In this document: piece after piece, positions 4,381-38,990 of the stretch
How positions within the stretch are numbered: position 1 is the stretch's first letter
Layout of the letters: each line of letters begins with the position of its first letter
Source of the DNA: a virus
Reading direction: 5' to 3' (one strand)
Length of the DNA: 44,923 nucleotides
Virus record (IMG/VR): IMGVR_UViG_3300032265_001669
Location: 1 to 44,923 of that record
Notes under the pieces: model-generated
Database searches by the model: none
What the model was told of the DNA's origin: nothing
The model's input: the letters and a program-made list of their open reading frames with translations, nothing else
Position numbers and translations under genes: made by a program

Positions 4381-4405
4381 TTTAAATTAGATCATATCTA
4401 TAGAA

Positions 4406-23629: not shown

Positions 23630-23740
23630 TGGTGTAGACGGTAGGATTCGAACCTACAAAGCCACCCTAAGGGCTAGGCCAATTCCCTCCGTTCGCTTGC
23701 GCTACTAGGAGGAGGTATACCAAGTTCCACTCACGTCTAC
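23630..23740 (-). tRNA. tRNA-like element with atypical anticodon region
   Basis: Minus strand. A perfect 7-bp acceptor stem pairs 23734-23740 with 23634-23640. A canonical T-arm (GTAGG-TTCGAAT-CCTAC) precedes it, a Leu-like D-loop (GGAACTTGGTA) follows it, and the 3' end encodes ACCA. Total length 111 bases with CCA, longer than class II tRNAs. Between D- and T-arms are two hairpins: one with CCTCC/GGAGG and a GCAA-type cap, and one with AGCC/GGCT around CTTAGGGT, where U33-UAG-G37 would fit a Leu(UAG) anticodon in an 8-base loop. The order of a normal long variable arm is not met, so decoding function is doubtful. Confidence 0.6.
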
Positions 23741-23815: not shown

Positions 23816-24427
23816 ATGTACACAATAATAGAAGATTGTAGCCCATATTATATAAGATTCAAATGGGAAGGATTGCAAGATGTTATAAGTTCTATATCTC
23901 AACAACCTTTAGAAAACGAAGAAAAATATCCCGGTTATCAGAACCAATGGTTGACTAAAAAAGCGGCTATAAAAATAAATGACATGTTACCTTTTAAAGA
24001 TTTAAGATTACGATTATCTAGATTTTGTATTTTTGATACATACCCAGACGGCGGAATGGGTATACATACGGACGGGGTAACCAATGAAGACGGAATCAAC
24101 ACTCAATCAGTTGGTATCAACATAGCACTAGAAATATCAGACGATAAATGTATAACGTATTGGTATGATGACGAACAGTTTAAAGACTGGCCAGCCAATA
24201 TTAGTAGATGGAGTAAAAATATATTAAAAGATTGGCGCAAAGCGGCAACTTATCCCAATGTAAAAACAACAAATGTACGCCCAGGTGAAGCAATCCTTCT
24301 GAATACTTCTATCTATCATAGTGTTTGGAATAAAGATTCGCCCAACAGAAGAATACTGTTGACGCTTAGACCTAGAGTCAACACCATTCCGTTTGCCGAG
24401 ATTAAAAAAATAATGTTTGGTTTGTAA
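23816..24427 (+). CDS. Fe(II)/2-oxoglutarate oxygenase-like protein
   Basis: 203 residues. The metal site is H84-T-D86 in MGIHTDG, with the distal His at H168 (SIYHSVWN) and the 2-oxoglutarate-anchoring Arg near R178/R179, the normal order of the double-stranded beta-helix. First gene of the enzyme island, read rightward. Such enzymes hydroxylate peptides, nucleobases, sugars or lipids; the substrate here is unknown. AGGAAA sits near the ATG. Confidence 0.72.
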   Translation: MYTIIEDCSPYYIRFKWEGLQDVISSISQQPLENEEKYPGYQNQWLTKKAAIKINDMLPFKDLRLRLSRFCIFDTYPDGGMGIHTDGVTNEDGINTQSVGINIALEISDDKCITYWYDDEQFKDWPANISRWSKNILKDWRKAATYPNVKTTNVRPGEAILLNTSIYHSVWNKDSPNRRILLTLRPRVNTIPFAEIKKIMFGL

Positions 24428-24450
24428 AATCTTAGACAAAGGAAAACAAC

Positions 24451-25185
24451 ATGCAACTAATTAATAATCAAATATTTTATAATCTAGAAAACCATTTAGA
24501 TATGAAAGCATTTGACGAGATAAACGATAAAATTGCACTTGCGTTGGCAAAAAATTATGCACATTGTCGACCATCAGGTACTGGTCAAGCTACACTATAT
24601 GATCAATCTACCGTGAGTGTATTTAAAGAACGGGATCGAATCTTGTTAGAAATGCCTGAGCTAAGCCGCATAGAGGCTGAGTATTATGCTAAATTATCTG
24701 GAGCATCTACTCTTGGAACTCGTCTTATTGTACGAGGAGTTTTGGGTGATCAAGCAAAATATCATGAGAAGCATCTAAAAAGAAATGTAATAAAATATCC
24801 GTTTGACGACCAATTTAAGTTTTTATTTGATTGGATAGATGCGCAGAATTGTTTTACTGAGTACTGTAGAGTAATTTTTTGGATCAACGAGTCTTGTCAA
24901 AAAACAGCTTTTCACCGAGATTACGCTGAAAATAATGCTAGATATAAAGATGTCAAAGATCAATTTATTTGGTTGACCGGAGTAATTCCAAAGAGACTAG
25001 TTGTCAATGATTCCGATACCGGCAAACTACATCTTTCAACTTGTAGAGCGTGTGTTTTTAGTACGCACAATATTCATTCAAGTGAAGGTCATCCTCAATA
25101 TGCCGCTTGGAGTCTTCGGATAGATGGTAAATTTAATAAAGAATGGGCAGAAAAAGCAGGTATTTCTGAGTACTTTAATCTTTAA
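24451..25185 (+). CDS. Fe(II)/2-oxoglutarate oxygenase-like protein
   Basis: 244 residues. H155-R-D157 (AFHRDYAE) is the proximal site, with distal H206 or H209 (STHNIHSS) and R223 (SLRID). The extra N-terminal 140 residues are helical. AspH-like (aspartyl/asparaginyl hydroxylase) enzymes share this HRD-type spacing. AAAGGAAA site upstream. It ends 22 bases before the convergent leftward oxygenase, with no terminator hairpin between. Confidence 0.7.
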   Translation: MQLINNQIFYNLENHLDMKAFDEINDKIALALAKNYAHCRPSGTGQATLYDQSTVSVFKERDRILLEMPELSRIEAEYYAKLSGASTLGTRLIVRGVLGDQAKYHEKHLKRNVIKYPFDDQFKFLFDWIDAQNCFTEYCRVIFWINESCQKTAFHRDYAENNARYKDVKDQFIWLTGVIPKRLVVNDSDTGKLHLSTCRACVFSTHNIHSSEGHPQYAAWSLRIDGKFNKEWAEKAGISEYFNL

Positions 25186-25207
25186 ATTATAGGTACACTT
25201 GGCTAGT

Positions 25208-26065
25208 TTAATTTTCTATATCCAACGTTAATCCTTCAAAAACATCACCATCGGCTAGCATATCAAATGGGTGTTTAACTCCGTAGAATTCGTTTTTTAA
25301 CCAATACTGCTCTTCAGGGTTATAATTCCACCAAGGACTAAGTCCCAATACAAGGTGTATTCTTCTAAAATTATCTGTTTTAACTTTATAAACTTTATGT
25401 AGATCGTGTGTATCCCAACTATAAGCCCACCCTACAGGCAAATTAACAGGGGGATAATCCTCTATTTCCATTAAGTAATTATCATTAGTAGTCAATGGAA
25501 TATTAATCCTTGTATTGATAAACACGGGCTCATCTCGGTGCCATCCTTGGGAGGCATTAACTTTGCCGTTTATCACAGATATTCTACTTCTTATACGGGT
25601 TAGTTTGCAACGAGACATTAACTCTCCGATACTTTTGTGGTTACTTGCCGGCGTCGGAACATTGAATCCATAGCTATCAAAATACCCGTTGCGTAATACT
25701 TGGTGAGTTTCTAACGAACCGAATACAAATTCTTCTTTTTTATTTTTAGGAGTTCCTAATGTACTAGCATGAATATTCAATTTGTCTTGGTGATTTGGAT
25801 TATACACTAAACTGATTCCAGTATATAAACTACTTTCGCCTGTGGCGTGCCGCCATCCGTATTCACCGTAAATTTCTGAAGCTTCGTTGTAATCCTTAGT
25901 TAGTTGATCAGCATCAAAATTAGAAATTTTAAAATTTAATATTTTTGGATAGACAATTCTGGGTTTGATTTTGGCCATCTGATCTGACCAATCGGTATTT
26001 TGTAATAACCAATTAACTATAGTCATATCCTCAGGACAATCTTTAACATAATATTTTTTTTGCAT
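25208..26065 (-). CDS. Fe(II)/2-oxoglutarate oxygenase-like protein
   Basis: 285 residues from the ATG at 26065, one base past the previous stop; an upstream extension of 24 codons is the overlapped neighbour. H176-R-D178 (GWHRDEPVF), distal H220 or H223 (WDTHDLHKVY) and R234/R235 (RRIHLVLG) give a full site resembling aspartyl/asparaginyl beta-hydroxylases. Last gene of the leftward island operon. Substrate unknown. Confidence 0.72.
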   Translation of the reverse strand: MQKKYYVKDCPEDMTIVNWLLQNTDWSDQMAKIKPRIVYPKILNFKISNFDADQLTKDYNEASEIYGEYGWRHATGESSLYTGISLVYNPNHQDKLNIHASTLGTPKNKKEEFVFGSLETHQVLRNGYFDSYGFNVPTPASNHKSIGELMSRCKLTRIRSRISVINGKVNASQGWHRDEPVFINTRINIPLTTNDNYLMEIEDYPPVNLPVGWAYSWDTHDLHKVYKVKTDNFRRIHLVLGLSPWWNYNPEEQYWLKNEFYGVKHPFDMLADGDVFEGLTLDIEN

Positions 26066-26066
26066 A

Positions 26067-26363
26067 TTAAATAGTCGATACTTCTTTATCGACCTCGATA
26101 CCGTGACTAACATTATATATAAGTCGTTCATTAGCAATTTTATTATTTGAACTTTCTTTTAGAAAATTTGCGTAATTTTCTTCGTTGTCAAACATAATTA
26201 TTTGTTCTTTTACAGTAGTCGTTAAATTTTCATCTGTAAAACTAACAAAACCCTTACATGTTTTGACCCAGTTGATATACTCTTTATGTTTTTCTGGTTC
26301 ATGTTCTGCAAAAAACTGAGAATTATCAGGTTTACTTATAATCATTGATAAACAAATTGTCAT
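26067..26363 (-). CDS. small protein, unknown
   Basis: 98 residues, soluble, acidic, with a FDNEENYANFLKESSN segment recalling small alpha/beta ABM-like folds. Strong AAGGAGA site. It lies between the DUF2061-like gene and an oxygenase in the leftward operon. Function unknown. Confidence 0.55.
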   Translation of the reverse strand: MTICLSMIISKPDNSQFFAEHEPEKHKEYINWVKTCKGFVSFTDENLTTTVKEQIIMFDNEENYANFLKESSNNKIANERLIYNVSHGIEVDKEVSTI

Positions 26364-26373
26364 AAATGTCTCC

Positions 26374-26637
26374 TTAGACTGTATTTAGTGTGTTACTACT
26401 ATTAACAATTTCTTTCCCCCAGCCAGCACGATTCCACGCTCTTTCATGAAAATAGTACATTATGCTGTTTACTACTAGTGCAAAACTAACTACACCTAAT
26501 CCAACCCAAGGATTACCACTTGCTAGCCAACCTCCTAGAAAATTAGTAATAGTAACTAATATTCGCCAAGTAATCACTTTAGCCGCACTACGCGGTATCT
26601 TTTCTTGGAATCGTTCTTTAATTGTTGTTGAATCCAT
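26374..26637 (-). CDS. DUF2061-like membrane protein
   Basis: 87 residues. RSAAKVITWRILVTITNFLGGWLASGNPW ... VVNSIMYYFHERAWNR matches the DUF2061 pattern: K-x-I-T-W-R-x-L near the start, two membrane spans, then Y-Y-x-H-E-R-x-W. Members occur near sulphate-assimilation and other loci without known activity. It overlaps the PP-loop gene by 20 bases, with AGGAAAAA upstream. Membrane location suggests the pathway acts at the inner membrane. Confidence 0.78.
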   Translation of the reverse strand: MDSTTIKERFQEKIPRSAAKVITWRILVTITNFLGGWLASGNPWVGLGVVSFALVVNSIMYYFHERAWNRAGWGKEIVNSSNTLNTV

Positions 26638-27799
26638 TTTTCATTTTTCCTATAATATATTTTTGTTTAAAATCAAGTAGTGAGTCAGGGATACCCCACG
26701 TAGTCATATTGACATATTTTGGAATATTTTTTCTTAGAAAAAATAATCCATTTCTCCAATTTTCACGTTCTTTTTCAAACTGTTGTAGTCTCTTGAACCA
26801 TCCATCAAATTCTGTATTCCACCATTGTATTGACTTATCTGCTTGATACCAAGAATTATCCCATGTAGAGTATAACAAACTACGTAACCACCTTTCGTGA
26901 TATAAACGTCTCATTTGGGTTCCAGTATTTCTCCAATACCCCTGTCTATCTGGACGGTCTAATTCTAACCACCGTTTTATTACGTGTGCTTGTTTGCAAA
27001 CCATGTCAACAGAGTCAGGGCTCCAATAAAACAATTCTGTTGTTACATTACTGTACTCTTTATTAAAGTCGTTGATCGTTGTTATATTAGCAGTAGTATC
27101 ATTAAAAAATATATAAAAGTTTCCATTGTTATCAATCTGAGTCTTTGGTTTATCAACTCCTACAATTATACATGCGCTTTTTCCTTGGTCAAATTTCTTT
27201 TTAATTTCCCCAAAGTGAAAATAATTGTAACGGAATAGTTGCCCTGGTGATATATGATCATTTCGATGCAATACCCAATCTTCTTCACTAAAATCCTTCA
27301 TAGCATCTACAACGCTGTTACTGACATCTAGCACCGTAATTTTAGTTCTAGGTAGTTTATCAGTTATGTATTGTAATCTAGGCACAGCTTGAAGTTGATG
27401 CTCGGCAGCAAAGTTCCAACTATCTTTAAAATCGGAGTCTATTAGTGTGTATGATTTAGTAAGCTCGGTCATGTGATTAGTCACAATTTCATCTATGTGT
27501 AGACCTTGCCTGATAAAACTTTCTAATATATTATTAGTGTCAGCACCACCGCTAAAACTCAGCACAACGTAATCGTACTTTTCCCTCAATTGTCGACTAC
27601 GTCGATCGTATAGTTGGTCAAGAGATTCAGTAGGCTCAACTTGCCAATTATAGTTGTCAAACTCTAATCGATTAAAATACCATTCTACAGGTTTATTAGA
27701 TCTAGTACTGTGAAACAACGCATCAATTTTAGATGAAAATTCTATACCATCACAAAGATAGTATCCTAAATGTTTATTTGTCATATTATTTTCTAACAT
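26618..27799 (-). CDS. PP-loop ATP pyrophosphatase-like protein (asparagine-synthase-like)
   Basis: 393 residues from an ATG whose A overlaps the previous stop (TAATG). PP-loop S83-G-G-A-D87 in VVLSFSGGADTNNIL binds ATP for substrate adenylation. There is no N-terminal glutaminase domain. The C-terminal half is W/Y-rich and helical. This class activates a carboxylate or carbonyl for attack by an amine or thiol. It is next to another PP-loop gene, so the two may act on the same pathway. Exact family unresolved. Confidence 0.7.
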   Translation of the reverse strand: MLENNMTNKHLGYYLCDGIEFSSKIDALFHSTRSNKPVEWYFNRLEFDNYNWQVEPTESLDQLYDRRSRQLREKYDYVVLSFSGGADTNNILESFIRQGLHIDEIVTNHMTELTKSYTLIDSDFKDSWNFAAEHQLQAVPRLQYITDKLPRTKITVLDVSNSVVDAMKDFSEEDWVLHRNDHISPGQLFRYNYFHFGEIKKKFDQGKSACIIVGVDKPKTQIDNNGNFYIFFNDTTANITTINDFNKEYSNVTTELFYWSPDSVDMVCKQAHVIKRWLELDRPDRQGYWRNTGTQMRRLYHERWLRSLLYSTWDNSWYQADKSIQWWNTEFDGWFKRLQQFEKERENWRNGLFFLRKNIPKYVNMTTWGIPDSLLDFKQKYIIGKMKNGFNNN

Positions 27800-28713
27800 T
27801 AAAATATCCAATCTTTAAATTCTTTAATAGATCCCGAGCAAGATTCTAAATGTTGCACTACATCATTGTAATTTACACTGATGTGTGCTTCTTTAGGATA
27901 TGCCCAATGCGGAATCATCCAATTGGGATAATTTTCATAACCTGATTTTTTAGAAGGCCACAGGATGTCTCTTTTAAAGTATTTTCCTTTTAATAATCCT
28001 TTTAGATAATAATTAAATCTACTGCCCGGAACCATAGGCTGTTGAGTGCCCGCTACTACCAAATCGTTTGTAATATAATAATTACACACATCACCCCAAA
28101 TTTTAATTAGATCGTCGCAATAGTAAGAAGCGAGGCTTTCTGCACTATACGGAAAGTCTAAAATAGTTCGATGTTTATTAATTAAATTAAAACGTAAACG
28201 CAGACTTTCATGATAGTTGTGATATATGTGTAAACCAATTATTCGATTTCCTATGATTGCAGGTTCGTTTGCACCGCTCATAATCATGGGATAATTTTCT
28301 GGCAACATTTTGCTGGCAAGTTCAAAAGGGTAATGAACTAAAGTTGGTAAATTTTCAGAAATTGATCTTGCTTCCCACTCTTCGCGATGTTCTTCAAGTT
28401 GTACTTCTAAAATTTTAATTTTAATTCCGTAAAATTTTTCAGAAAGTTCCACTACTGTTTTTTCAAAATCATTACGTCCTTTTACATGAATGAAAAACGG
28501 TTCAAAATCTACCTTCATATCTAAAAAGCATCGAAGTATTACTTGGCTATCTACACCCGAACTAAACGCTACGTATACCTTACCGTATTTTTCATTAATA
28601 AGTTTTGTATCAGCATTAAGTTCTTCACGCAGATTTCCAAACTTTCGACTTGGACTTTGATATCTTACAACATATTCTTGTTTGTCGATTTCGTATGTTA
28701 TTGGATTGTCCAT
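27799..28713 (-). CDS. PP-loop ATP pyrophosphatase-like protein
   Basis: 304 residues. PP-loop S51-S-G-V-D55-S56 in VYVAFSSGVDSQVILRCF. A second block MSGANEPAII (about 150) may close the nucleotide site. Architecture parallels the 311-residue protein at 30.1 kb: N-terminal lead of 45-65 residues, PP-loop, then helical tail. Probably an ATP-dependent amide, thio or ammonia-transfer enzyme; no partner glutaminase is seen. Confidence 0.7.
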   Translation of the reverse strand: MDNPITYEIDKQEYVVRYQSPSRKFGNLREELNADTKLINEKYGKVYVAFSSGVDSQVILRCFLDMKVDFEPFFIHVKGRNDFEKTVVELSEKFYGIKIKILEVQLEEHREEWEARSISENLPTLVHYPFELASKMLPENYPMIMSGANEPAIIGNRIIGLHIYHNYHESLRLRFNLINKHRTILDFPYSAESLASYYCDDLIKIWGDVCNYYITNDLVVAGTQQPMVPGSRFNYYLKGLLKGKYFKRDILWPSKKSGYENYPNWMIPHWAYPKEAHISVNYNDVVQHLESCSGSIKEFKDWIF

Positions 28714-28714
28714 T

Positions 28715-29179
28715 TTAATTTTTCAAATCCATAGTTGTTCTATAAAATAAAGTTTCTTTTCCAATTGATTTACAAATTGCCAGCATTGGTATATTATCGC
28801 AATGCACGTGACTATTAATACTGCCGGAGTTATTAGTTTTTGCAACTTTTTCTAAATAAGAATGCATTATTTTATATAACCCTCTTCCTCTATATTTTTC
28901 AAAAACAGTCCCAAGAACTATCCATGTAGTTTTTTGGTAATCATTCTGGTAATTAAACACTATAAATCCTGCTACTTCATCTTCAATTTTGACATATATT
29001 ACTTTACTGTCATTTGAGCCCATTAAGGCTTGGTTCGCCCAACCTTTTTCTATTAATGATGCTGTTTCTTTTAAAAAGAAAGGCACAATGATAGATCCTC
29101 CTAAAGTACTAGAAAGATTAACAGAAACAATTGTTTGTGTTTTGTCTTGGACTTTTCCTAACTCGCTGACTATTGGCAT
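28715..29179 (-). CDS. GNAT family acetyltransferase-like protein
   Basis: 154 residues from the ATG at 29179, which has GGAG seven bases upstream. The acyl-CoA pyrophosphate loop is YRGRGLYKIM (about 96-105). GNAT enzymes acylate amines on small molecules or proteins. It opens the leftward operon; a GCTAAATA motif at 29197-29204 lies just ahead. Confidence 0.72.
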   Translation of the reverse strand: MPIVSELGKVQDKTQTIVSVNLSSTLGGSIIVPFFLKETASLIEKGWANQALMGSNDSKVIYVKIEDEVAGFIVFNYQNDYQKTTWIVLGTVFEKYRGRGLYKIMHSYLEKVAKTNNSGSINSHVHCDNIPMLAICKSIGKETLFYRTTMDLKN

Positions 29180-29227
29180 AATGTTTCTCCGTGACATATT
29201 TAGCAGGCAGTTTTTTAGGATAAAAAT

Positions 29228-29806
29228 TTATAAATCCAATCTGTACTTGTTCATATGCTGATTCCACTTGTCAGTTGCATCACTATTTAAAAAATACATA
29301 GCGACCCACTGTTTACAACTTTCCGGAATAGGATCTAGGGAACCGCACACGTTGTATTTGCTGGATTCCATGCAAAAGGAGATGTTGCAATTTATGTTAA
29401 TCAACTGCAAATAATGCACAAACGCTCTTTGATTATCTTCTCTACTGATAAAAACACAATCCAACTTCAATAATTTTGCCTTGGCTAGTTGTAAAGGAAG
29501 ACAATATGTTGTGTTGAGAAATTTTTCTCCACCCACAAATTTACCCCGGTGTCTGTAATCAGGATGTATCCACATTCTAGTGCTTACCCGTCCAATTCCC
29601 TTGCCCCATCGTTCGTCGTTAATTTGCAGTGCGCTGAAACACACAATTTTGTCATCCACAATCACCACCGGAAAACAAGCAAACATTCTCGGATCCAAAT
29701 TCAAATAGTTGGCTTTGAGATCATCTGTAGTAGTCAGCAGATATGCTTGATATTTTTCCCAAAGTTCAGAATCATAACTGGTAGCGAAATCGATAATTTT
29801 TTTCAT
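29228..29806 (-). CDS. GNAT-like acetyltransferase
   Basis: 192 residues from the ATG at 29806; the frame extends 20 codons upstream across the palindromic promoter region, so I use the shorter start. STRMWIHPDYRHRGKFVGG (about 95-113) resembles the beta4-alpha3 GNAT acetyl-CoA loop. Late part VFISREDNQRAFVHYL fits the following helix. No ribosome site is obvious. Divergent from the acyl carrier protein gene. Confidence 0.55.
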   Translation of the reverse strand: MKKIIDFATSYDSELWEKYQAYLLTTTDDLKANYLNLDPRMFACFPVVIVDDKIVCFSALQINDERWGKGIGRVSTRMWIHPDYRHRGKFVGGEKFLNTTYCLPLQLAKAKLLKLDCVFISREDNQRAFVHYLQLININCNISFCMESSKYNVCGSLDPIPESCKQWVAMYFLNSDATDKWNQHMNKYRLDL

Positions 29807-29813
29807 GGTGATA

Positions 29814-29827
29814 TATTTACGTAAATA
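29814..29827. promoter_or_regulatory. palindromic bidirectional late-type promoter candidate
   Basis: Perfect 14-base palindrome TATTTACGTAAATA in the divergent gap. Each strand reads CGTAAATA, which keeps the TAAATA core of late promoters. It could fire both ways, or be an operator. Confidence 0.4.
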
Positions 29828-29865
29828 CGTTGCGCACATACTAACACGTGGCAGGAGACATAACA

Positions 29866-30084
29866 ATGACAGATTCTGAAAAGATTGAATTTATAGAAAA
29901 TGCAATACTGATTCTTACAAAAAAAACTTTAAAATTGAAACCAACTGATATTTTGGTAGACTTATCTTTGGATTCGTTGGATATTGTTGAACTACAAATG
30001 TACTACGAAGAAACCACGGGACACGAAATAGAATCCGATGCTGTTGTTTTCACTGTTGGTGAATTAATGGCTTTGATGAAATGA
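29866..30084 (+). CDS. acyl carrier protein
   Basis: 72 residues from the ATG at 29866, with AGGAG eight bases upstream. The phosphopantetheine-attachment motif is D36-S37-L38 in SLDSLDIVELQM. Acidic helical fold of normal ACP length. It would carry an acyl or aminoacyl group on a host-added phosphopantetheine arm; no phosphopantetheinyl transferase is here. Stop overlaps the next start (ATGA), tying it to the PP-loop protein. Confidence 0.88.
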   Translation: MTDSEKIEFIENAILILTKKTLKLKPTDILVDLSLDSLDIVELQMYYEETTGHEIESDAVVFTVGELMALMK

Positions 30085-31016
30085 ACTTTACACAAAATAA
30101 TCATTTGACCTATACCATAGGCGATAGACTATTTGGACATCGTGACACACCGTATGAAAAATACAAAGTGCATGTGGGAAAAATAGATATTGATTATTAC
30201 AAAACAAGTAATTGGTTGGAAGAACAATACCGCACTGCTGACATGGTATCCAAAGAATTTGGTAAAGATTTAGTAGTAATGTTCAGTGGTGGAACAGACA
30301 GCGAAATTGTGTTGAGATCGTTCCTTAAAATCGGTGTCAAACCCAGGGCTGTGTTTATTAAATTCAAAGACGACTATAACTGGAATGATTATCTTAACGG
30401 ATTGGTAATTTGCAACGAACTTGGAATAATGATGGAAACTATAGAGTTCGATGTTAAGGAATTTTATAAAAGCGGTGAAGCCGCTGAGTTTGCAACAGTG
30501 CTACAATGTCGTCAAATTGCTTATTTGACAGTTTATCACAACATTTTAAAACTACAAGCACCTGCGGTAATGGGCGGCGAAATGCTGTTGAGACGTCACG
30601 TGACTCCTACAGACAGCAAGTGGTATTATACATTTAGAGAAAACGAAGATGCAAGTGCTATGAGATTTAGTATGAAATATACTATTCCATTAGTGAATGA
30701 ATGGTTCAGTTATACTCCAGAAATGATTGGTTACTATTTGGAAAACACTGGTATTCAGCAGTTGATCACCGAACGGTACAACTACAAACTGGCAAGCGTA
30801 AGTTCAAAAAATGAAATATTGTATACACTTATGCCTGAACTGGTGAGGAAAAACAAAACCACAGGGTATGAAAAACTGCTGGGGTTCAACGGGGAAACAT
30901 ATAGAGAGTTGTACCTAACACATCCTAGGCGACTAGAATCCAGCTTGGACGGCATTTTTATAGATGATTTAAAAATTCAATTATACGGAAAAAATTATGA
31001 CAGTAGTAAAACTTGA
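30081..31016 (+). CDS. PP-loop ATP pyrophosphatase-like protein
   Basis: 311 residues. PP-loop S69-G-G-T-D73-S74 in LVVMFSGGTDSEIVLRSF. A later MGGEMLLRRH segment may close the site. It is translationally coupled to the acyl carrier protein, which suggests it adenylates or amidates a carrier-bound or free acid. Third member of this class in the island. No glutaminase domain. Confidence 0.72.
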   Translation: MNFTQNNHLTYTIGDRLFGHRDTPYEKYKVHVGKIDIDYYKTSNWLEEQYRTADMVSKEFGKDLVVMFSGGTDSEIVLRSFLKIGVKPRAVFIKFKDDYNWNDYLNGLVICNELGIMMETIEFDVKEFYKSGEAAEFATVLQCRQIAYLTVYHNILKLQAPAVMGGEMLLRRHVTPTDSKWYYTFRENEDASAMRFSMKYTIPLVNEWFSYTPEMIGYYLENTGIQQLITERYNYKLASVSSKNEILYTLMPELVRKNKTTGYEKLLGFNGETYRELYLTHPRRLESSLDGIFIDDLKIQLYGKNYDSSKT

Positions 31017-31596
31017 TAGTTCACACGCAGACGCAGTTAAAAACTTGTTCCGTTCTAAAAAATACATGGGTGTTGATATCAACAGCACCAGTTTTAATCA
31101 AAACGGCAATGGTGAAATATTCAATGCAACATTGTATAATATTTTTTGCTCTAACTATCTAAGTGATTTGAATAATTTTCATGCATATGGTTACTTGGAA
31201 AATGACCAAATCAAAGCATTAATTTCATTTTATGAAAGTAATGAAGAACCTTCCTGGTTTTATACCATATATAGAAGTAGCGGAAATAATAACTTGCTGA
31301 GAGAAGTATTAGATGTAGTAATTGATCATAATGAAAAAAATGGAAGATTGAAATTTTACACGCTGACTCAGTCTGCACACACTCGATTATTGCGCAGGTT
31401 CCATTGGAGTAAATACAATGATGAAAGATATGGGTATTTTGACGAGTTTCTAGTACCAGGTAAAAATAAATGTTTCTATGTTAATCCTTGGGAATTGCTT
31501 TACAAAAGATTTTTAGTTCCTGAAGATTCTATTGTCAGATGTAATTACTTGAAACAAGAATATAGAACCACATTACCCATTGGAGGGGGGATATGA
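30997..31596 (+). CDS. GNAT-fold-like protein
   Basis: 199 residues. The opening VVKLDSSHADAVKNLF and the NNLLREVLDVVIDHNEKNGRLKFYTLTQSAHTRLLRRFHW section fit a GNAT fold, but the R-x-x-G-x-G/A loop is not clear, so catalysis is uncertain. Overlaps the PP-loop gene by 20 bases and the desaturase by 4. Confidence 0.5.
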   Translation: MTVVKLDSSHADAVKNLFRSKKYMGVDINSTSFNQNGNGEIFNATLYNIFCSNYLSDLNNFHAYGYLENDQIKALISFYESNEEPSWFYTIYRSSGNNNLLREVLDVVIDHNEKNGRLKFYTLTQSAHTRLLRRFHWSKYNDERYGYFDEFLVPGKNKCFYVNPWELLYKRFLVPEDSIVRCNYLKQEYRTTLPIGGGI

Positions 31597-32390
31597 ATTT
31601 GTTTAAAAATGTATCAAAATCATTTTGGTTACAATTTGTGCCTGGCATGATTTTGGGTGCCGCAACAATTGTATTATTGATAATGGGAGTTATTCCACTT
31701 TACTATTTGTGGGCAACATTTGTCATGTGGACATTGGTTTGCGGGCTGGGCATCGCAGTGGGATATCATAGAATATTCAGCCATCGCACTTACCAACTGC
31801 CTGTGTGGAAAGAGAACATAATATTATTTTTTGCCGCAATGGCCGGCCAAGGTGCAAGTATATTTTGGGTAGCAATGCATCGTGGTTACCATCATCCTCA
31901 TTCTGATACTGCAAAAGATCTACACAGCCCAGTGGCTTATGATAAAAAAACAGCATTTGTTGGTTGGTATCTCAAATTGACCACTGGTAATAATCCTGTA
32001 AATATCAAATACGCAGTTGACTTGCTTAGGAAAAAGAACCATGTATGGTTACACAACAACTATCATTCTGTGCTATGGGGTATTCCATTAGTTGTGGCAC
32101 TGTTTGATTGGCGACTATCTTTGACAGCATGTTGTCTTGTGACTTGCATTGGATTACTACAAGATAATTTGGTCAATGTGTACGGGCATTTGAAAGGCAG
32201 TATTGGTTACAGAAATTTTGAAACCACAGATAATTCCCATAATAATCCGATACTGGGATACCTAGCATGGGGCCAAGGTTGGCACAACAATCATCATCAC
32301 TCGCCTGGTTCTTTTGATTTTGGGTCTGGTGTAAGTGGAAAATGGTGGGAGTTAGATCCTTCTAGAATTTTTATTCCTTTTTTAAAATGA
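31593..32390 (+). CDS. fatty acid (acyl) desaturase
   Basis: 265 residues. Three histidine boxes: H59-RIFS-H64, H96-RGY-H100-H101, and H231-NN-H234-H235, set among about four membrane spans (11-31, 36-58, 76-94, 163-190). These bind the di-iron centre of membrane desaturases, typically the delta-9 class, which insert a double bond into acyl chains. Strong GGAGGGGGG site. Neighbouring acyl carrier protein suggests an acyl substrate. Confidence 0.9.
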   Translation: MNLFKNVSKSFWLQFVPGMILGAATIVLLIMGVIPLYYLWATFVMWTLVCGLGIAVGYHRIFSHRTYQLPVWKENIILFFAAMAGQGASIFWVAMHRGYHHPHSDTAKDLHSPVAYDKKTAFVGWYLKLTTGNNPVNIKYAVDLLRKKNHVWLHNNYHSVLWGIPLVVALFDWRLSLTACCLVTCIGLLQDNLVNVYGHLKGSIGYRNFETTDNSHNNPILGYLAWGQGWHNNHHHSPGSFDFGSGVSGKWWELDPSRIFIPFLK

Positions 32391-32995
32391 ATGATACAAG
32401 TCAATTATACCAAAAAATATTTTCTGAGTTCAGTGTATCTTGGAATATAGATGAATTAGAACGTGAATTTGAAACTATTGAACTTGATAGATATTATCGT
32501 AGACCTTATTCAGATCCAAACAACAGAACTCATTGGCAGCATTTTAGTAGCGGGATAGCATTTTGCAGAAATTTTCATTTAAATTTTAATAAAGAATGTA
32601 TTGAAGTAGCTGAAGAATTGAAAAAACATCAGCGTACAATTTCGCAGAGCTACCGTTCTGATAATCGTCTGATACTAGAATTTTTGCGACATAACATCAG
32701 GCCAGACAGGGTTAATATCACTAAAATTATGCCTACTAAACATGTTGGTGCCCATGTGGATATCACTAGAGACATATGTTTAAATATTGGATTAAAAAGA
32801 AGTAACAAGTGGGATACTCTTATTCAAGATACGCTGACTGTAGAAAACTTCGAGCCTGAACAAGCTCATAGGTTTGTGATAGACGAAGGCACTGGATATC
32901 TCATGTCAGTAAAACATGTTCACTCAGTGGCATGTAACGACTACTCAAATCAACTTCCTAGATATGTTATTACTTATAATTTGTTAAATAGATAA
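32387..32995 (+). CDS. Fe(II)/2-oxoglutarate oxygenase-like protein
   Basis: 202 residues. Proximal site H123-V-D125 (GAHVDITRDICLNIGL), distal H179 (VKHVHSVAC) and R192 (PRYVITY). ATGA overlap with the desaturase. Fold order is consistent with a complete enzyme; substrate unknown. Confidence 0.7.
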   Translation: MNDTSQLYQKIFSEFSVSWNIDELEREFETIELDRYYRRPYSDPNNRTHWQHFSSGIAFCRNFHLNFNKECIEVAEELKKHQRTISQSYRSDNRLILEFLRHNIRPDRVNITKIMPTKHVGAHVDITRDICLNIGLKRSNKWDTLIQDTLTVENFEPEQAHRFVIDEGTGYLMSVKHVHSVACNDYSNQLPRYVITYNLLNR

Positions 32996-32997
32996 TC

Positions 32998-33564
32998 ATG
33001 ACTGTCTATTTTAAAAAAATTGATTCAAGCATTTTTCCAACAGCTCTGATTGATCCTGATTCTATCAAAGGTGAGTTAAAATTTCATTATGGCCATCCTC
33101 GTTATTTTGAAATAAGTGATAAAGATTATGTAGAATCTTTAAAAAAAGTTTTCAAAATACCTCCGGTAAATTTTTATCTAGTAGAAGGACACGGTGTTTT
33201 GCCTCCTCATTTTGATCACGGTCAAGACAGCTGTCTTAATTTTTATATACGGCCAGGCGGTTATACTACTAGTTTTTGGAAACTAAAAGAAAACGCTAAA
33301 AATAGAGTAAGCATTAAGTATGATGCAAAAACTAACACAACAAAAGAAGTTAATACCGGTTATTATTATGAAGATTTAATATTGATAGATCAATTTCAAG
33401 CAATTGCCGGTGAGGCCTATGTTTTAAATATATCAGAAATACATTCTGTAGAAGGTGCTAATCCAGAAAAACCTAGAGCGTTTGTCCAATTGCAATGGAA
33501 CATGACAATGGATCAATTATTAAAATCTTTAAATTTTAACGGAAATAACAATGAAAATTTATAA
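32998..33564 (+). CDS. Fe(II)/2-oxoglutarate oxygenase-like protein
   Basis: 188 residues. Proximal H71-F-D73 (PPHFDHGQDSCLNFYI), distal H149 (SEIHSVEGA) and R160 (KPRAFVQLQW). Two bases after the previous stop. Compact, no extra domains. Substrate unknown. Confidence 0.7.
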   Translation: MTVYFKKIDSSIFPTALIDPDSIKGELKFHYGHPRYFEISDKDYVESLKKVFKIPPVNFYLVEGHGVLPPHFDHGQDSCLNFYIRPGGYTTSFWKLKENAKNRVSIKYDAKTNTTKEVNTGYYYEDLILIDQFQAIAGEAYVLNISEIHSVEGANPEKPRAFVQLQWNMTMDQLLKSLNFNGNNNENL

Positions 33565-34336
33565 ATTAACTACTGCTATTGGAGCAGAAATAACCGGTGT
33601 TGATTTATCGCAACCATTACCATCTACAACTGTAGTAGATTTAAAAAATGCATTAATTGATAATCGTATGATATTTTTTAGAGATCAAGAATTAAATCCT
33701 AACTACTTACCAGAGGTTATGAATCAATTTGGCGAAATTTATATTCATACCGATGAGAAGAAATATAATAATAATCCTAAAATTGGATATGTGTTTTCGG
33801 GGGAAGATACAACATTTTTTGAAGTTGATGGGAAATATATGCATTCTGACAGAACGGCTGTAGCAGAACCCCCTAGAACCTCTATGTTATATATTACCGA
33901 ATGTCCATCTGTCGGTGGCGACACAATATTTGTCAACACCTCTAAGATTTATAATCAAATGGATGACGGTCAAAAATCATTTCTATCGTCTTTATCGGCA
34001 TTGCATGTTGCTCCTGGCAAACGTAGAGACTTGGGCGATTATACAGTAGGAGCAACACATCCGGTCATTGCCATAAGGCCTGAAACACAAGAAAAATATT
34101 TAAATGTCAATGAGATGGCTTCAGTTAGCATAACACGTCTAAAATCAATGGAAAGTAATAATTTGTTATCGAGACTTTTTCACACACTTCGCCACCCCCA
34201 ATATTCTTGTAGACTACGCTGGAGTCCTAATACCATAGCTTGGTGGGACAATTTTGGATCACAACATCAAGCTGTATGGGATTATTATCCTATGCGTCGA
34301 GTTGGTTACAGGGTTCTTTCTAAAAATCTTTACTGA
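33551..34336 (+). CDS. TauD/TfdA family dioxygenase
   Basis: 261 residues. The classic TauD pattern is visible: GAEITGVDLSQPL near the start, H98-S-D100, GGDTIFVNT (about 122-130), THPVIAIRPETQEKYLNVN, and WWDNFGSQHQAVWDYYPMRR with H239 and R250. TauD relatives oxidise small substrates such as taurine or aryloxyacids. Overlaps the previous gene by 14 bases and the convergent SDR by 7. Confidence 0.88.
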   Translation: MKIYKLTTAIGAEITGVDLSQPLPSTTVVDLKNALIDNRMIFFRDQELNPNYLPEVMNQFGEIYIHTDEKKYNNNPKIGYVFSGEDTTFFEVDGKYMHSDRTAVAEPPRTSMLYITECPSVGGDTIFVNTSKIYNQMDDGQKSFLSSLSALHVAPGKRRDLGDYTVGATHPVIAIRPETQEKYLNVNEMASVSITRLKSMESNNLLSRLFHTLRHPQYSCRLRWSPNTIAWWDNFGSQHQAVWDYYPMRRVGYRVLSKNLY

Positions 34337-34992
34337 TTGCCGTAAGCATTACTTATTTCTAAAGATTTAATACTTACCCAAGGCGGTTGAGTTATGATCC
34401 ACTGAATAGTTTCTGCTATATATTCAGCACTCATAGGCATATAAGATTTAAAATCATAGTTTTCGTAAATATCTGTCATAGGCTTGCTATCAGCATCTGC
34501 TGACATCATGGTAGTGTACACTATTTGTGGCTCTAAACTTGTTATAAATACTGGCTTAGTTCGATAGTTTGATAAATTATTACTTAAATTCTTTATAAAC
34601 AACTTTGATGCTTTGTAACACAACTCACCGATACCAGATTTTGGGCCGCCAGATGTGTTGGCTGACCAGCTGGATATATTAATTATATACCCAGCTGTCA
34701 TTTTTGTATAAAATTTTACTAGTAAAAATCCCGCTGATTCTACATTGGTGTTTAATAATTCGTCTACTTTTACACTACCATTAACTCCTGCATTATTAAT
34801 AAACACTTGCGGAGTATACTTATTGACTAGCATGTTTCGAAATTCAGTATCGTTTATGTCCCCAACTTCAGTTACAAATTCTCCGGGAGTCCTAGATACT
34901 CCCACAATTTCATACAAATCTTTAAAGTGTTTTGCACAGGCAAGTCCTATGCCTCGACTAGTGCCAGTTATTAACATTATTGGTTTAGACAT
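34330..34992 (-). CDS. short-chain dehydrogenase/reductase
   Basis: 220 residues. NAD(P)-binding TG-TSRGIG (9-16), N66-N67-A68-G69, active-site S107/S108, and Y126-K-A-S-K130. It would oxidise or reduce an alcohol or ketone. Coupled with an oxygenase upstream. Convergent 7-base overlap with TauD-like gene and no terminator. Confidence 0.88.
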   Translation of the reverse strand: MSKPIMLITGTSRGIGLACAKHFKDLYEIVGVSRTPGEFVTEVGDINDTEFRNMLVNKYTPQVFINNAGVNGSVKVDELLNTNVESAGFLLVKFYTKMTAGYIINISSWSANTSGGPKSGIGELCYKASKLFIKNLSNNLSNYRTKPVFITSLEPQIVYTTMMSADADSKPMTDIYENYDFKSYMPMSAEYIAETIQWIITQPPWVSIKSLEISNAYGNQ

Positions 34993-35677
34993 TTTTTGTT
35001 TTCTCTAGTATTTCTTCCCACGGGTGGTGAATTTGTGTACTGACAATCAACCGTCGTTCACCATTTCGCTCTATAGAATGTACAATTTCAGTTCTTACAA
35101 AATCACCCGTTTGATCTACTTTAGATAATGTATGTGCTGAATGATCAGGGTTTCCTAATAGGCCAAGTTGTTCTTTTTTAGAATTTCCAATTACTTGCCA
35201 TCTTTTTCCAAAATTTGGAATATTGATAGGTTGAATTGCAGGGTGGTTTATATCTCTATTCCACCAGTGCATTTTAGAATTTTCATTGCCATAAACTAGT
35301 ACATTGAATCTGCCAGGTAACGGTTTCATTCCAGGAGTATCAATATGTGGGTTTTCTATAGAAAACAGTTTTGATTGAATTTTATACACAAACATTTGAA
35401 CGTGTATCTGTGTTAATTCTAGCTCGTTTAAAAATTTCTTTACTTGTATCGCAGGAGATGAAGATTGAAAAACAATAGAATCAGTATGATTAGGATTGTT
35501 AAAAATAGGACCACCGGTGTCTGGAAATGTTTCATCAAAATTCTTGATAATCGCTGGGCAATGGATGTCAAACCATTGTTTTGATTCTTCGTTGAATTTA
35601 AAATTTATACTGACGTGCGGAGTTATCATCCAATATTTAGCACAATATTTAACATGTGATTTCAAAATTTGAATCAT
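34985..35677 (-). CDS. Fe(II)/2-oxoglutarate oxygenase-like protein
   Basis: 230 residues from the ATG at 35677; a GTG two codons earlier is a possible but weaker start. Proximal H111-I-D113 (NPHIDTPG), distal H200 (EIVHSIERNGERR) and R208/R209. Leftward two-gene unit with the SDR. No late motif is visible on this strand upstream. Confidence 0.68.
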   Translation of the reverse strand: MIQILKSHVKYCAKYWMITPHVSINFKFNEESKQWFDIHCPAIIKNFDETFPDTGGPIFNNPNHTDSIVFQSSSPAIQVKKFLNELELTQIHVQMFVYKIQSKLFSIENPHIDTPGMKPLPGRFNVLVYGNENSKMHWWNRDINHPAIQPINIPNFGKRWQVIGNSKKEQLGLLGNPDHSAHTLSKVDQTGDFVRTEIVHSIERNGERRLIVSTQIHHPWEEILEKTKNV

Positions 35678-35690
35678 GCACACTGCCGTA

Positions 35691-35698
35691 CATAAATA
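35691..35698 (+). promoter_or_regulatory. T4-late-type promoter (CATAAATA)
   Basis: Plus-strand CATAAATA ends 22 bases before the ATG at 35721, in a divergent gap. This is the best late motif inside the island and would drive the last four genes up to 38990. Confidence 0.6.
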
Positions 35699-35720
35699 CT
35701 GATACTTTTAAAAACAACCT

Positions 35721-36362
35721 ATGATACCAGAAGATCTAAGTCGATATCGATATCAAATTGAAAAATGGCCTGAAGACAAAACTACATGGGCAAGTCTTAA
35801 AGGATCCACGACTACCAAAAATCTTACTAGATTAATACACAATCTCACAGGATTTGATGATAGCTACCGAGAACTAATTGATAATTTGGACAAATTTGAT
35901 TTACATTGCGGATCTAAAACGCCAACGGCTCCACGATCGTTAGTGTATGCACAGACCGGACCTTTAAGAGAATGCAGAACCATTTATCTAGCAAATAACA
36001 TGGAACGATCGGAACTAGTTGATAAATCTGTGTTTCCTAAAACTTTTTTATTTTTAAGAAAATTAAAGCAGTTGATAGAGGAAGAAAATCCTAGAAGGTT
36101 AACCAGAGCATACGTTACTACTCTAGGACCCGGAAAACAAATATATCCGCATAATGATACAATAGCACCATATTTTGATAATATTGAAAGGTATCAATTT
36201 TATTATACAGGAACAGATGAAGTTTTACAGATAGTAGGAGATACTCTATTTCCTGTCAAACCAGGAGACTTGTATTACCTCGATCATAAACAAATTCACT
36301 CATATCATAATAAAAGTTCTTTAGATTTGATGCTGATGGTATTTGATTTAGCCATAGTTTAA
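35721..36362 (+). CDS. Fe(II)/2-oxoglutarate oxygenase-like protein, AspH-like
   Basis: 213 residues. Proximal H144-N-D146 (YPHNDTIAPYFDNIERYQF), distal H193 (QIHSYHN). The expected co-substrate Arg about ten residues after the distal His is absent (the stretch reads SSLDLMLMVF), so it may use another anchor or be altered. The long N-terminal part has GSKTPTAPRSLVYAQTG. Substrate unknown. Confidence 0.6.
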   Translation: MIPEDLSRYRYQIEKWPEDKTTWASLKGSTTTKNLTRLIHNLTGFDDSYRELIDNLDKFDLHCGSKTPTAPRSLVYAQTGPLRECRTIYLANNMERSELVDKSVFPKTFLFLRKLKQLIEEENPRRLTRAYVTTLGPGKQIYPHNDTIAPYFDNIERYQFYYTGTDEVLQIVGDTLFPVKPGDLYYLDHKQIHSYHNKSSLDLMLMVFDLAIV

Positions 36363-36387
36363 TGTACGTGCGAATAAAAGGAAACTT

Positions 36388-37068
36388 ATGATTAGTCATA
36401 GATCAATACAATTGACAGATGCTCAAGCAATTTTAACAGAAATTGTCAACGACCCCGACCCAAATTGGTTTAGACCAAAGGGTAAACCTGGTAAACAACT
36501 TCATGATGATTCACCCGGAGATTTTGACTTAGGTGCAATGAAATTTGTTAATAAAAATTTAAATTATTTTTATTTTATTAATATGATATCATATGCCCTC
36601 AAAAACAATTACGAATATAATCCAAATTATCCCCATACATTAAATTTTTGTAATAGGATGAGAGAAGTACTAAATGAACCTGGTCCGTTTGGCAGAATGT
36701 GTATATGGAATTTAGATGCTCATTGTAAATTATTGCCTCACACTGATGCATGGAAATATCATAAACGAATCAAAAGATATATACTCTGTGTAAGTACGCA
36801 TGCCGGTAACGAAGCATTAATAAGAATTGCTGGTGAAAAAATTGATGTTAAACAGGGATTATTTTTTAGTTTTAATCCCGACACCGATATACATGAGTTT
36901 GTAAATTATACCGATCGTCCTTTTTATTTTATTGGTTTTGATTATTGGAACATTGAAAAATTATCCGAAGCAAGTTTAGAAAATAATATAACAATCGATA
37001 CTGTGATACCATACACAGAAGAATATGGGGGCCATGGATATACTACCAGATTTATGGGCCCGGAATAA
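36388..37068 (+). CDS. Fe(II)/2-oxoglutarate oxygenase-like protein, AspH-like
   Basis: 226 residues. Proximal H118-T-D120 (LLPHTDAWKYHKRIKRYI), distal H169 (DIHEFVNY), R177 (DRPFYF). AAAGGAAA site. The block order is that of aspartyl/asparaginyl beta-hydroxylase-type enzymes. Followed by the fifth radical SAM gene, with which it probably shares a transcript. Confidence 0.7.
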   Translation: MISHRSIQLTDAQAILTEIVNDPDPNWFRPKGKPGKQLHDDSPGDFDLGAMKFVNKNLNYFYFINMISYALKNNYEYNPNYPHTLNFCNRMREVLNEPGPFGRMCIWNLDAHCKLLPHTDAWKYHKRIKRYILCVSTHAGNEALIRIAGEKIDVKQGLFFSFNPDTDIHEFVNYTDRPFYFIGFDYWNIEKLSEASLENNITIDTVIPYTEEYGGHGYTTRFMGPE

Positions 37069-37087
37069 TTAAAAGGAAAAAGAAATT

Positions 37088-38413
37088 ATGTTTTGTAAAA
37101 CTGTTTGGAGCGGGTTGCATATTTTACCTGACGGATACATTAGATTATGTTCTATTGGGCAAAATTCTAATAAAAAATTAGACATGCAACGTGCCAGAGA
37201 TAAAGATGGCAAGGTAATGCATATACTAACCCATAGTATCTATCAAATAATGAATAGTGATAAACACAAAGAAGTTAGATTATTCAATGTTAATAATCCT
37301 GATAAATGGAGTCCGCATTGCGACTGTTGTGAGAATCGAGAGATAATAACAAATCATGATAGAAACCATAAAAATAAAAGTCGTAGAATATATTTGCTGA
37401 AAATAGAAGATGATAATGTTGTGTCAGAAGAAGACTATCAGCAAAACAAAATAGATAGTGAGGGTAATATAGATTGGATGCCAAGCTCGTTGGATATAAG
37501 ATTTGGCAATTTGTGTAATCAAAAATGCATTATGTGTAGCCCTGCGTTTAGCAATTTATGGTACGAAGAACATTTTGATTACTTTAAAACTAATTCGTTT
37601 GGGCAAGGAACTAAAATTACAGTTACCAAAAACACAGATACTGGTAAATGGATGGAGCCTGCTGAACTTCAATGGTATGAAGATCCTAGATGGTGGCCAA
37701 AGTTTGAAGAAATGATGCCGCATTTAAAACATATCTATATCACAGGCGGCGAACCAATGGTTACTCCAGCTCATGATATCATGCTTGATAAACTAATCGA
37801 AGCTGGTTACGCAAAAAATATATGGATAGAATACGATACAAATGCCAGTGCTATCAATAATAAAATAGCACAACGATGGAGTCATTTTAAGAAAGTAGAT
37901 ATTCGTGCTAGTATGGATGCAATTGGCAATCAATATGAATTGATAAGATTTGGTGGTAAATGGGAAAAATTTCAAAACAATATTAAAACTTTGAAACAGT
38001 ATGAAAAAGATTCTGGTGGTATAGTGAATTTATTATCAGTTAGTACATGTTTTCAAATTCCCACAGTGTACAGCATTATTGAAAGCGAAGAATGGTGCAA
38101 GAGTGTTGGGGTTAATTTTCATTTAAGATTTTTAGAAGGGCCTGCTCGATTATCAGTATCTTCATTATCTGACAAATCAAAACAAGAGTTGCTGGACTAT
38201 TATATAGAAAATCGAGATAAAGCAGATAAAGCACCAATGATTATAACATATTTAAAAAATCACATGGGTGATAAATTTTATAAACCCGATGAAGTAGTAG
38301 AGTTTATAAAATTTATGAATTATCTCGATGGCACAAGAAAAACTGATTGGAAATTAACTTTCCCCCAAGTATCACAAATGATAGAGAAAAATGAAATACA
38401 GAAAGCTGGGTAA
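37088..38413 (+). CDS. radical SAM protein with N-terminal cysteine block
   Basis: 441 residues. Internal motif C143-x3-C147-x2-C150 (CNQKCIMC), ITGGEPM downstream. N-terminal block has C3, C21, C78, C80, C81, like the proteins at 6.4-10.4 kb but with longer spacing. So this island enzyme is related in architecture to the distant cluster. Strong AAAAGGAAAA site. It overlaps the next oxygenase by 23 bases. Confidence 0.8.
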   Translation: MFCKTVWSGLHILPDGYIRLCSIGQNSNKKLDMQRARDKDGKVMHILTHSIYQIMNSDKHKEVRLFNVNNPDKWSPHCDCCENREIITNHDRNHKNKSRRIYLLKIEDDNVVSEEDYQQNKIDSEGNIDWMPSSLDIRFGNLCNQKCIMCSPAFSNLWYEEHFDYFKTNSFGQGTKITVTKNTDTGKWMEPAELQWYEDPRWWPKFEEMMPHLKHIYITGGEPMVTPAHDIMLDKLIEAGYAKNIWIEYDTNASAINNKIAQRWSHFKKVDIRASMDAIGNQYELIRFGGKWEKFQNNIKTLKQYEKDSGGIVNLLSVSTCFQIPTVYSIIESEEWCKSVGVNFHLRFLEGPARLSVSSLSDKSKQELLDYYIENRDKADKAPMIITYLKNHMGDKFYKPDEVVEFIKFMNYLDGTRKTDWKLTFPQVSQMIEKNEIQKAG

Positions 38414-38990
38414 GTTGCCAATAGAAACTATTGATTTCTTTTTGGTCGAAATACTAAAAAGAAAAAAGGCCGACTCTCCATACCAATGGATACATTTTGA
38501 CGAATACCTCAATGACGAATTTTTAAAAATTTTTACCAATACGGAATTAAAAATTCAATGGGACGAAAATAAAACCAAACCCATTCAGAAAGCATTTTAC
38601 TCTGATCCAGGTCATGGTTTTAGAATACACAAAGACGGTTTTCAATGTAACAGTGCATTGAATGTCACTGTGTCATGCAATCCCGGTGATTGGGTAAGAT
38701 GGTACGACGAACAGTATATCAATAGCATATCAAAAATTGATTACTCTAACAATTTTGGCAAAAGTAGAAACACTAATATATTTGACTATGAAAATATACC
38801 GTATGTTGAAGAGTTACATACTGAAGTGGGCGATGTGTATGTGCTAGATGTTAATACATATCACAGTTTTAAATGTATAGGAGATAAACCTCGAATCATA
38901 TTACAAACCAAATTTGAAGGTTTTCCAGTGTTAGATACTATTGATAAATCGCTTGCAAAAAATAGTTTTTCTAATCTAATTTCAAAATAA
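38391..38990 (+). CDS. Fe(II)/2-oxoglutarate oxygenase-like protein
   Basis: 199 residues. Proximal H80-K-D82 (FRIHKDGFQCNSALNVTVSC), distal H158 (NTYHSFKC), R168 (KPRIILQTKF). The site is complete. Start lies within the radical SAM gene; a later TTG is possible. It ends one base before the convergent fibre gene's stop. Last gene of the island. Confidence 0.68.
   Translation: MKYRKLGKLPIETIDFFLVEILKRKKADSPYQWIHFDEYLNDEFLKIFTNTELKIQWDENKTKPIQKAFYSDPGHGFRIHKDGFQCNSALNVTVSCNPGDWVRWYDEQYINSISKIDYSNNFGKSRNTNIFDYENIPYVEELHTEVGDVYVLDVNTYHSFKCIGDKPRIILQTKFEGFPVLDTIDKSLAKNSFSNLISK

Follow-up and report, generated by a model that had tools for sequence, protein, structure and literature searches.

A candidate phage-borne acyl-amide gene cluster with a conserved enzyme core and changing oxygenases

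Do the enzyme genes packed into one part of a phage contig form a pathway, or did they arrive as independent cargo? The question is raised by positions 23816-38990 of IMG/VR virus record IMGVR_UViG_3300032265_001669, whose positions 1 to 44,923 were analysed as a single stretch (the window) and are recognisable as phage DNA by matches to tail fibre, head-maturation protease, DNA ligase and MazG-like proteins. This island of ~15 kb holds 22 open reading frames (ORFs) on mixed strands, four of which we call the core: an acyl carrier protein (ACP), a PP-loop ligase (PP3), a GNAT-fold acyltransferase (GNAT3) and a membrane fatty acyl desaturase (DES). That the pieces of the island act together is well supported by their recurrence in other phages, and we see an even chance that they constitute a phage-borne, ACP-dependent acyl-amide gene cluster with interchangeable oxidative tailoring.

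Scans of viral contigs fetched 36 loci with PP3 and 79 with DES before redundancy removal. DES led to 65 non-redundant viral loci, of which 61 had PP3 within 3 kb, 56 GNAT3 and 23 ACP. The order ACP-PP3-GNAT3-DES on one strand was found at 24 of 71 non-redundant viral loci, and PP3-GNAT3-DES at 23 further loci of the 71. When the scan was started from GNAT3, PP3 lay within 3 kb at 54 of 57 loci; at the other three, the contig is truncated and GNAT3 starts just 17-786 bases into it. The oxygenase gene O9, at the far end of the island, retrieved loci that also had PP3 (18 of 19) and DES (17 of 19), and all four loci retrieved with the radical SAM gene were on core contigs. PP1, another PP-loop gene, is tied more loosely to the core than are the core genes and O9: of its five loci one had PP3 and DES, two had PP3 without DES, and two had neither. 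A single-sequence reverse scan with O7 by tblastn returned no relative. These scans are not fully independent, because many loci are shared between them and the O9 query alignment was built from core loci. The original prediction, made from the letters alone, had proposed a pathway and held that genes found singly and scattered in related phages would instead be independent cargo. Since scans started from the core genes and from O9 lead to one another, these genes are not scattered in that way, and for PP1 the association is looser.

Around this core the gene content changes. At least two 2-oxoglutarate (2OG)-type oxygenases were found within ~7-8 kb at 50 of 63 viral loci (maximum ten), and at least two PP-loop proteins at 35 of the 63. 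Accessory families had little overlap from locus to locus (median Jaccard 0.10), with rapid turnover of the oxygenases around a conserved core. Nor is the island one unit. Much of its right half (29848-38990) is syntenic with three loci: L004 retains most of it in near window order, including the inverted SDR-O6 pair, and L001 and L034 have the core followed by O4, O7, radical SAM and O9. The left half (PP2-PP1-DUF2061, GNAT1, GNAT2 and O1-O3) recurs partly beside the core, in differing combinations in other phages, for example at L029, L107, L110, L163 and L176. The site itself is a cargo slot, because the same two backbone gene groups enclose different content in L107, L110, L082 and L083. 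The earlier proposal of one product therefore seems plausible just for the core and nearby tailoring genes, and as the accessory set varies, the products probably differ between phages. Its suggestion that the island is read late is unsupported: TATAAATA, the T4-type late promoter, occurs 3 times where 6 are expected.

What the core proteins may do is indicated by conserved residues and predicted structures. In PP3 the PP-loop SGGxDS residues S69, G70, G71 and S74 were invariant in 56 sequences. Its predicted model (predicted local distance difference test score, pLDDT, 93) best matched asparagine, beta-lactam and carbapenam synthetases (Z 13.4-15.6 over 237-260 residues, root-mean-square deviation 3.6-4.4), above LarE and NAD synthetase (NadE), at Z ~10. 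PP3 thus shares the PP-loop and, over most of its length, the synthetase-domain fold of beta-lactam and carbapenam synthetases and asparagine synthetase B, but at 311 aa it has no N-terminal glutaminase-type domain; by its predicted fold, it resembles a glutaminase-free asparagine/beta-lactam synthetase. The C-terminal half gave no significant sequence alignment to E. coli AsnB, and for this reason we do not claim a catalytic Lys/Glu assignment. DES has all three histidine boxes, with H59, H64, H96, H100, H101, H231, H234 and H235 invariant in 30 sequences, and its best PDB relatives were acyl-CoA desaturases (6e-26). In ACP the motif D42-S43-L44 was invariant in 23 sequences, with S43 as the phosphopantetheine serine, although the window protein scores just under the PF00550 cut-off. 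GNAT3 shows a GNAT fold in its predicted structure (Z up to 14.2). A single ORF joining a GNAT to an ACP immediately upstream of PP3 (L024:9237-10004) ties the two directly together, and the families profile-linked to GNAT2 (f3 and f20) are GNATs found upstream of ACP in other loci.

Among the oxygenases, TauD and O8 exceeded the Pfam cut-off, O1 and O7 had sub-threshold Pfam oxygenase matches, and O2-O6 and O9 had no Pfam oxygenase match; profile comparison joined all ten HxD proteins and related families into one superfamily, O6 only via family f24. Invariant residues were found in O9 (H80/D82/H158/R168, 14 sequences) and O7 (H144/D146/H193, 12 sequences). Among genes with close relatives, which O2, O4 and PP2 did not have, the ratio of nonsynonymous to synonymous polymorphism (pN/pS) was 0.11-0.32 in about 14 (PP3 0.18, GNAT3 0.17, DES 0.23), and these genes are under purifying selection. 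Also found at other loci were a B12-radical SAM protein, a Rieske oxygenase and a fatty acid hydroxylase (PF04116).

These features suggest a scheme in which a host phosphopantetheinyl transferase (PPTase) would activate the phage ACP, one GNAT would load or unload an acyl group, and DES would put a double bond into the acyl chain. PP3 would then activate a carboxylate with ATP and join it to an amine, giving an amide or lactam in the manner of asparagine and beta-lactam synthetases, GNAT3 would N-acylate an amine, and the 2OG oxygenases, TauD, SDR and radical SAM protein would hydroxylate or otherwise finish the molecule, with a tailoring set specific to each phage lineage. The chemical steps and the use of the product are what we infer, its amide nature from the enzyme classes. 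Since no exporter was seen, the product would act in the cell, in the membrane or after lysis. The broader idea, that there is one acyl-amide scaffold of which each large phage makes its own variant during infection, and that this is a previously undescribed class of natural-product pathway, we hold somewhat more tentatively.

Several observations weigh against an acyl-amide cluster. Within the island we recognised neither an acyl-loading ligase nor a ketosynthase nor an exporter. A search of 16 phage records (none has a completeness estimate, and all may be incomplete) yielded no PPTase, so that ACP activation would fall to the host. ACP itself was seen near the core at 24 of 63 viral loci and may be dispensable or host-supplied; a motif search of the loci without it for ACP-like ORFs gave just two unconvincing matches. 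The sequence similarity of PP3 to asparagine synthetase is significant only in the PP-loop half. GNAT3 matches no Pfam model, and its predicted structure makes it a clear but generic GNAT whose closest enzyme is not informative. PP3 relatives in Bdellovibrionales, finally, often stand alone.

Where a bacterial counterpart of the cluster was found, it was in that same order, which has predatory members. The Bdellovibrionales genome Ga0074139 (locus L121) encodes SDR, 2OG oxygenase, B12-radical SAM, PP3, DES, GNAT3, ACP and a second DES, flanked by chromosome-type genes (a MerR regulator and transketolase halves), and no terminase of the searched family was found in the genome. It shares PP3, DES, GNAT3, ACP, SDR and 2OG oxygenase with the phage island, and differs in its bacterial setting, its gene order and its PP3 clade. 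The PP3 profile matched 24 of 141 genomes of the order at E <= 1e-20. In the PP3 tree the Bdellovibrionales and phage core clades are separate (support 0.95), so no recent phage-bacterium transfer is shown. This homologous cluster offers a bacterial entry point to the pathway. Of two genes beside it (L121:3318-4478 and L121:1970-2770), one encodes an ADP-ribosyltransferase-type domain and the other a MerR regulator that includes a TipAS domain for antibiotic recognition. A contig from a Neomarinimicrobiota metagenome-assembled genome (L118) carries a terminase, and is for that reason probably a large phage.

Known phages gave few relatives. In INPHARED, neither PP3 nor the radical SAM protein gave a match, and DES matched the cultured Pelagibacter phage Mosig EXVC030M (MT647606) and two 'Acinetobacter phage MD-2021a' records. 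We set the latter aside, as the neighbours of the DES match are ordinary bacterial genes and the records are probably a mislabelled bacterial contig; L136 (CAKLQH020000002.1), from MD-2021a, has trp genes, acetyl-CoA carboxylase and a two-component system, and here looks like ordinary bacterial chromosome. The Mosig desaturase (E 1.7e-29 to the DES profile) stands with two Asp_Arg_Hydrox enzymes, TauD, an N-acetyltransferase and radical SAM-type genes beside tail fibres, a resemblance to the island, but profile search of the stretch examined found no PP3, GNAT3 or ACP. The Mosig block (L135, MT647606.1 47723-72286) also encodes aminotransferases, a carbamoyltransferase and nitroreductases.

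The strongest challenge to an acyl-amide product comes from enzymes that also occur in lipid pathways. In ornithine-lipid pathways a single lipid is the substrate of the acyl-ACP-dependent N-acyltransferase OlsB, an OlsC/LpxO-type Asp_Arg_Hydrox oxygenase, the fatty acid hydroxylase OlsE and a desaturase. The island has the same acyl-ACP logic, a membrane desaturase and Asp_Arg_Hydrox (PF05118-type) oxygenases, with the PF04116 fatty acid hydroxylase in some relatives, and might thus make or modify an ornithine-lipid-like membrane aminolipid. Desaturases are described from cyanophages and pelagiphages (PMC11480375), those of cyanophages as lipid desaturases (PMC11480375, citing Roitman 2018). 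We nevertheless consider lipid remodelling unlikely: no island protein matched the OlsB-type domain PF13444 (Pfam, E <= 1), although GNAT3 itself falls outside Pfam, and ten oxygenases with several PP-loop proteins are more than a simple lipid pathway would need. Slightly less probable still is an acylated, amidated group that decorates a glycan, a lipopolysaccharide-like structure or a tail fibre. The fibre gene adjoining the island, the comparable block beside the tail fibres of Mosig, and epimerase-like and glycosyltransferase-looking proteins near some relatives (f47, f55 and f56, judged by eye) agree with such decoration, whereas the island itself has no recognised glycosyltransferase or sugar-nucleotide enzyme, and a bacterial chromosome carries a counterpart cluster too.

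Two other explanations seem to us very improbable. That PP-loop, radical SAM and oxygenase enzymes modify tRNA or DNA is suggested by the sequence relatives of the PP-loop proteins, which include NadE, LarE, MnmA and QueC, and 2OG oxygenases and GNATs do occur in hypermodified-base pathways. The whole-chain fold predicted for PP3, however, favours asparagine/beta-lactam synthetase over tRNA thiolases, and neither ACP nor desaturase is known to take part in such modification. Independent auxiliary cargo accumulating in one slot would be consistent with the low sharing of accessory families and with the different content of the same backbone slot in other phages, but it is largely refuted by a core that is co-linear in dozens of loci and whose genes, with O9, retrieve one another.

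If the acyl-amide cluster is instead compared with known cassettes, the JamABC-type terminal alkyne cassette consists of a ligase, a membrane desaturase and an ACP. The island likewise pairs a membrane desaturase with a dedicated ACP, but no AMP-forming fatty acyl-ACP ligase was seen, there being no AMP-binding enzyme among the island Pfam matches, and a PP-loop ligase and GNATs are present instead. Compared with ornithine lipid pathways it has many more oxygenases, and PP-loop ligases. The island and its relatives are co-localised biosynthetic genes conserved across phages, and in this sense a candidate phage biosynthetic gene cluster. Such clusters are described as rare, mostly for bacteriocins, and from temperate phages, in the summary of Dragos 2021 given by PMC10452541; as in those, natural-product-like genes are carried on phages, and the present family differs from the clusters summarised there in being ACP/ligase/desaturase based, on contigs of up to 524 kb. 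We found no description of this gene set in the open-licence papers searched. Dozens of large phage contigs keep an enzyme core in one order, without a nameable counterpart, and swap oxygenases around it. If a compound is made, diversified natural products would have a source in phages, and the chemistry of infected hosts would be altered.

The features of the island are collected in Table 1. The original prediction had listed about 20 mostly enzyme-like genes, and its inventory was borne out: ten proteins have the HxD...H motif and three have PP-loops, profile searches agree on ACP, desaturase, radical SAM, SDR (adh_short 5e-12) and DUF2061 (Pfam 1e-13), and the three expected GNATs were recovered, one by Pfam, one by a weak Pfam match and one by predicted structure. 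It was also right that the island is A/T-rich (GC 0.340 against 0.407 for the rest of the window, or 34% against 41%), that its strands are mixed between leftward flanks, where every gene considered is on the minus strand, and that a tRNA-like element and a fibre gene bound it. PP1 and DUF2061, often with PP2 (26374-28713 in the window), make up a second recurrent module (L159, L160, L163 and L176-L178), which also occurs where a fatty acid hydroxylase adjoins PP3.

Table 1. Features of the island and its two edges, with window coordinates.
Feature	Coordinates	Strand	Basis or remark
tRNA-Ser-like RNA	23630..23740	-	left edge; encoded CCA, sarcin-ricin-loop-like hairpin for anticodon arm
O1, 2OG/Fe oxygenase-like, HTD	23816..24427	+	weak Asp_Arg_Hydrox; family link to O9
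O2, 2OG/Fe oxygenase-like, HRD	24451..25185	+	HxD...H motif; family links
O3, 2OG/Fe oxygenase-like, HRD	25208..26137	-	link to f4 Asp_Arg_Hydrox family
S98, 98 aa, no annotation	26067..26363	-	ORF; weak relatives in L062 and (by clustering) L107
DUF2061 membrane protein	26374..26637	-	Pfam 1.1e-13; recurs beside PP1
PP1, PP-loop ATPase	26618..27811	-	SGGADT; profile link to PP3
PP2, PP-loop ATPase, PP3 relative	27799..28713	-	SSGVDS; hhalign 99.3% to PP3
GNAT1 acetyltransferase	28715..29197	-	Pfam 1.1e-7
GNAT2 acyltransferase-like	29228..29866, likely ATG start 29806	-	weak Pfam; profile link to f3/f20
ACP, core	29848..30084, first ATG 29866	+	PF00550 E 1.3e-3; PHROG ACP 4.5e-6
PP3, core, stand-alone asparagine/beta-lactam-synthetase-like PP-loop ligase	30081..31016	+	SGGTDS; predicted fold
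GNAT3, core, GNAT-fold acyltransferase	30997..31596	+	predicted structure
DES, core, membrane di-iron fatty acyl desaturase	31593..32390	+	FA_desaturase 3e-14
O4, 2OG/Fe oxygenase-like, HVD	32387..32995	+	profile-family link
O5, 2OG/Fe oxygenase-like, HFD	32998..33564	+	profile-family link
TauD/TfdA 2OG dioxygenase, HSD	33551..34336	+	Pfam 5e-45
SDR, FabG-like	34330..34992	-	Pfam adh_short 4.9e-12; PHROG FabG-like 2e-19
O6, 2OG/Fe oxygenase-like, HID	34985..35683	-	link to f24 family; conserved in L004
O7, Asp_Arg_Hydrox-like 2OG oxygenase, HND	35721..36362	+	sub-threshold Pfam; invariant triad
O8, Asp_Arg_Hydrox 2OG oxygenase, HTD	36388..37068	+	Pfam 4.2e-6, above cut-off
Twitch-domain radical SAM	37088..38413	+	NCBIfam NF033640 1e-78
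O9, 2OG/Fe oxygenase-like, HKD	38391..38990	+	triad invariant in 14 sequences; reverse scan
Tail fibre, Mtd_N domain	38992..40509	-	right flank; Pfam 1.9e-10

The RNA at the left edge is probably unconnected with the pathway. It belongs to a separate family of phage RNAs, 111 nt long and with at least 25 distinct members, whose tRNA-Ser-like body has a T arm, a long variable arm and an encoded CCA. A pattern for the odd arm matched 40 viral contigs; 28 of 29 distinct matches were tRNA-like, and 25 distinct RNAs were extracted (the window element, L110:2903-3013 and L236-L275 are among the sites). ARAGORN at default settings called neither the window element nor 14 relatives, Rfam gave no tRNA match in the window at E <= 1, and two relatives had only sub-threshold Rfam tRNA or tmRNA matches. 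A TATAAT-like box lies just upstream of most family members. Pairing was kept in 99.5% of cells across 15 sequences, against 33-51% in slid controls, nine pairs change on both sides, and the acceptor, variable and T stems covary. At the anticodon-arm position all have CTCCTAGTA-GC-[TTCG, GCAA or GTAA]-GC-GAACGGAG, the tetraloop cap being interchangeable (UUCG/GCAA/GUAA) and the rest of the arm invariant, in part because the search pattern demanded its sequence. The E. coli 23S rRNA contains CTCCTAGTACGAGAGGACCGGAG, a near match to this arm, at its sarcin-ricin loop. In these RNAs a near copy of that loop replaces the anticodon arm, and the RNA might be a non-decoding tRNA/rRNA mimic that engages elongation factors or a ribotoxin. 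At the corresponding spot L107 has an ordinary tRNA-Ser(GCU).

A second low-GC block in the window (3529-10417, GC 0.346) encodes two DUF6492 proteins and four consecutive twitch-type radical SAM proteins, and proteins related to the latter are also encoded close to the core in other phages.

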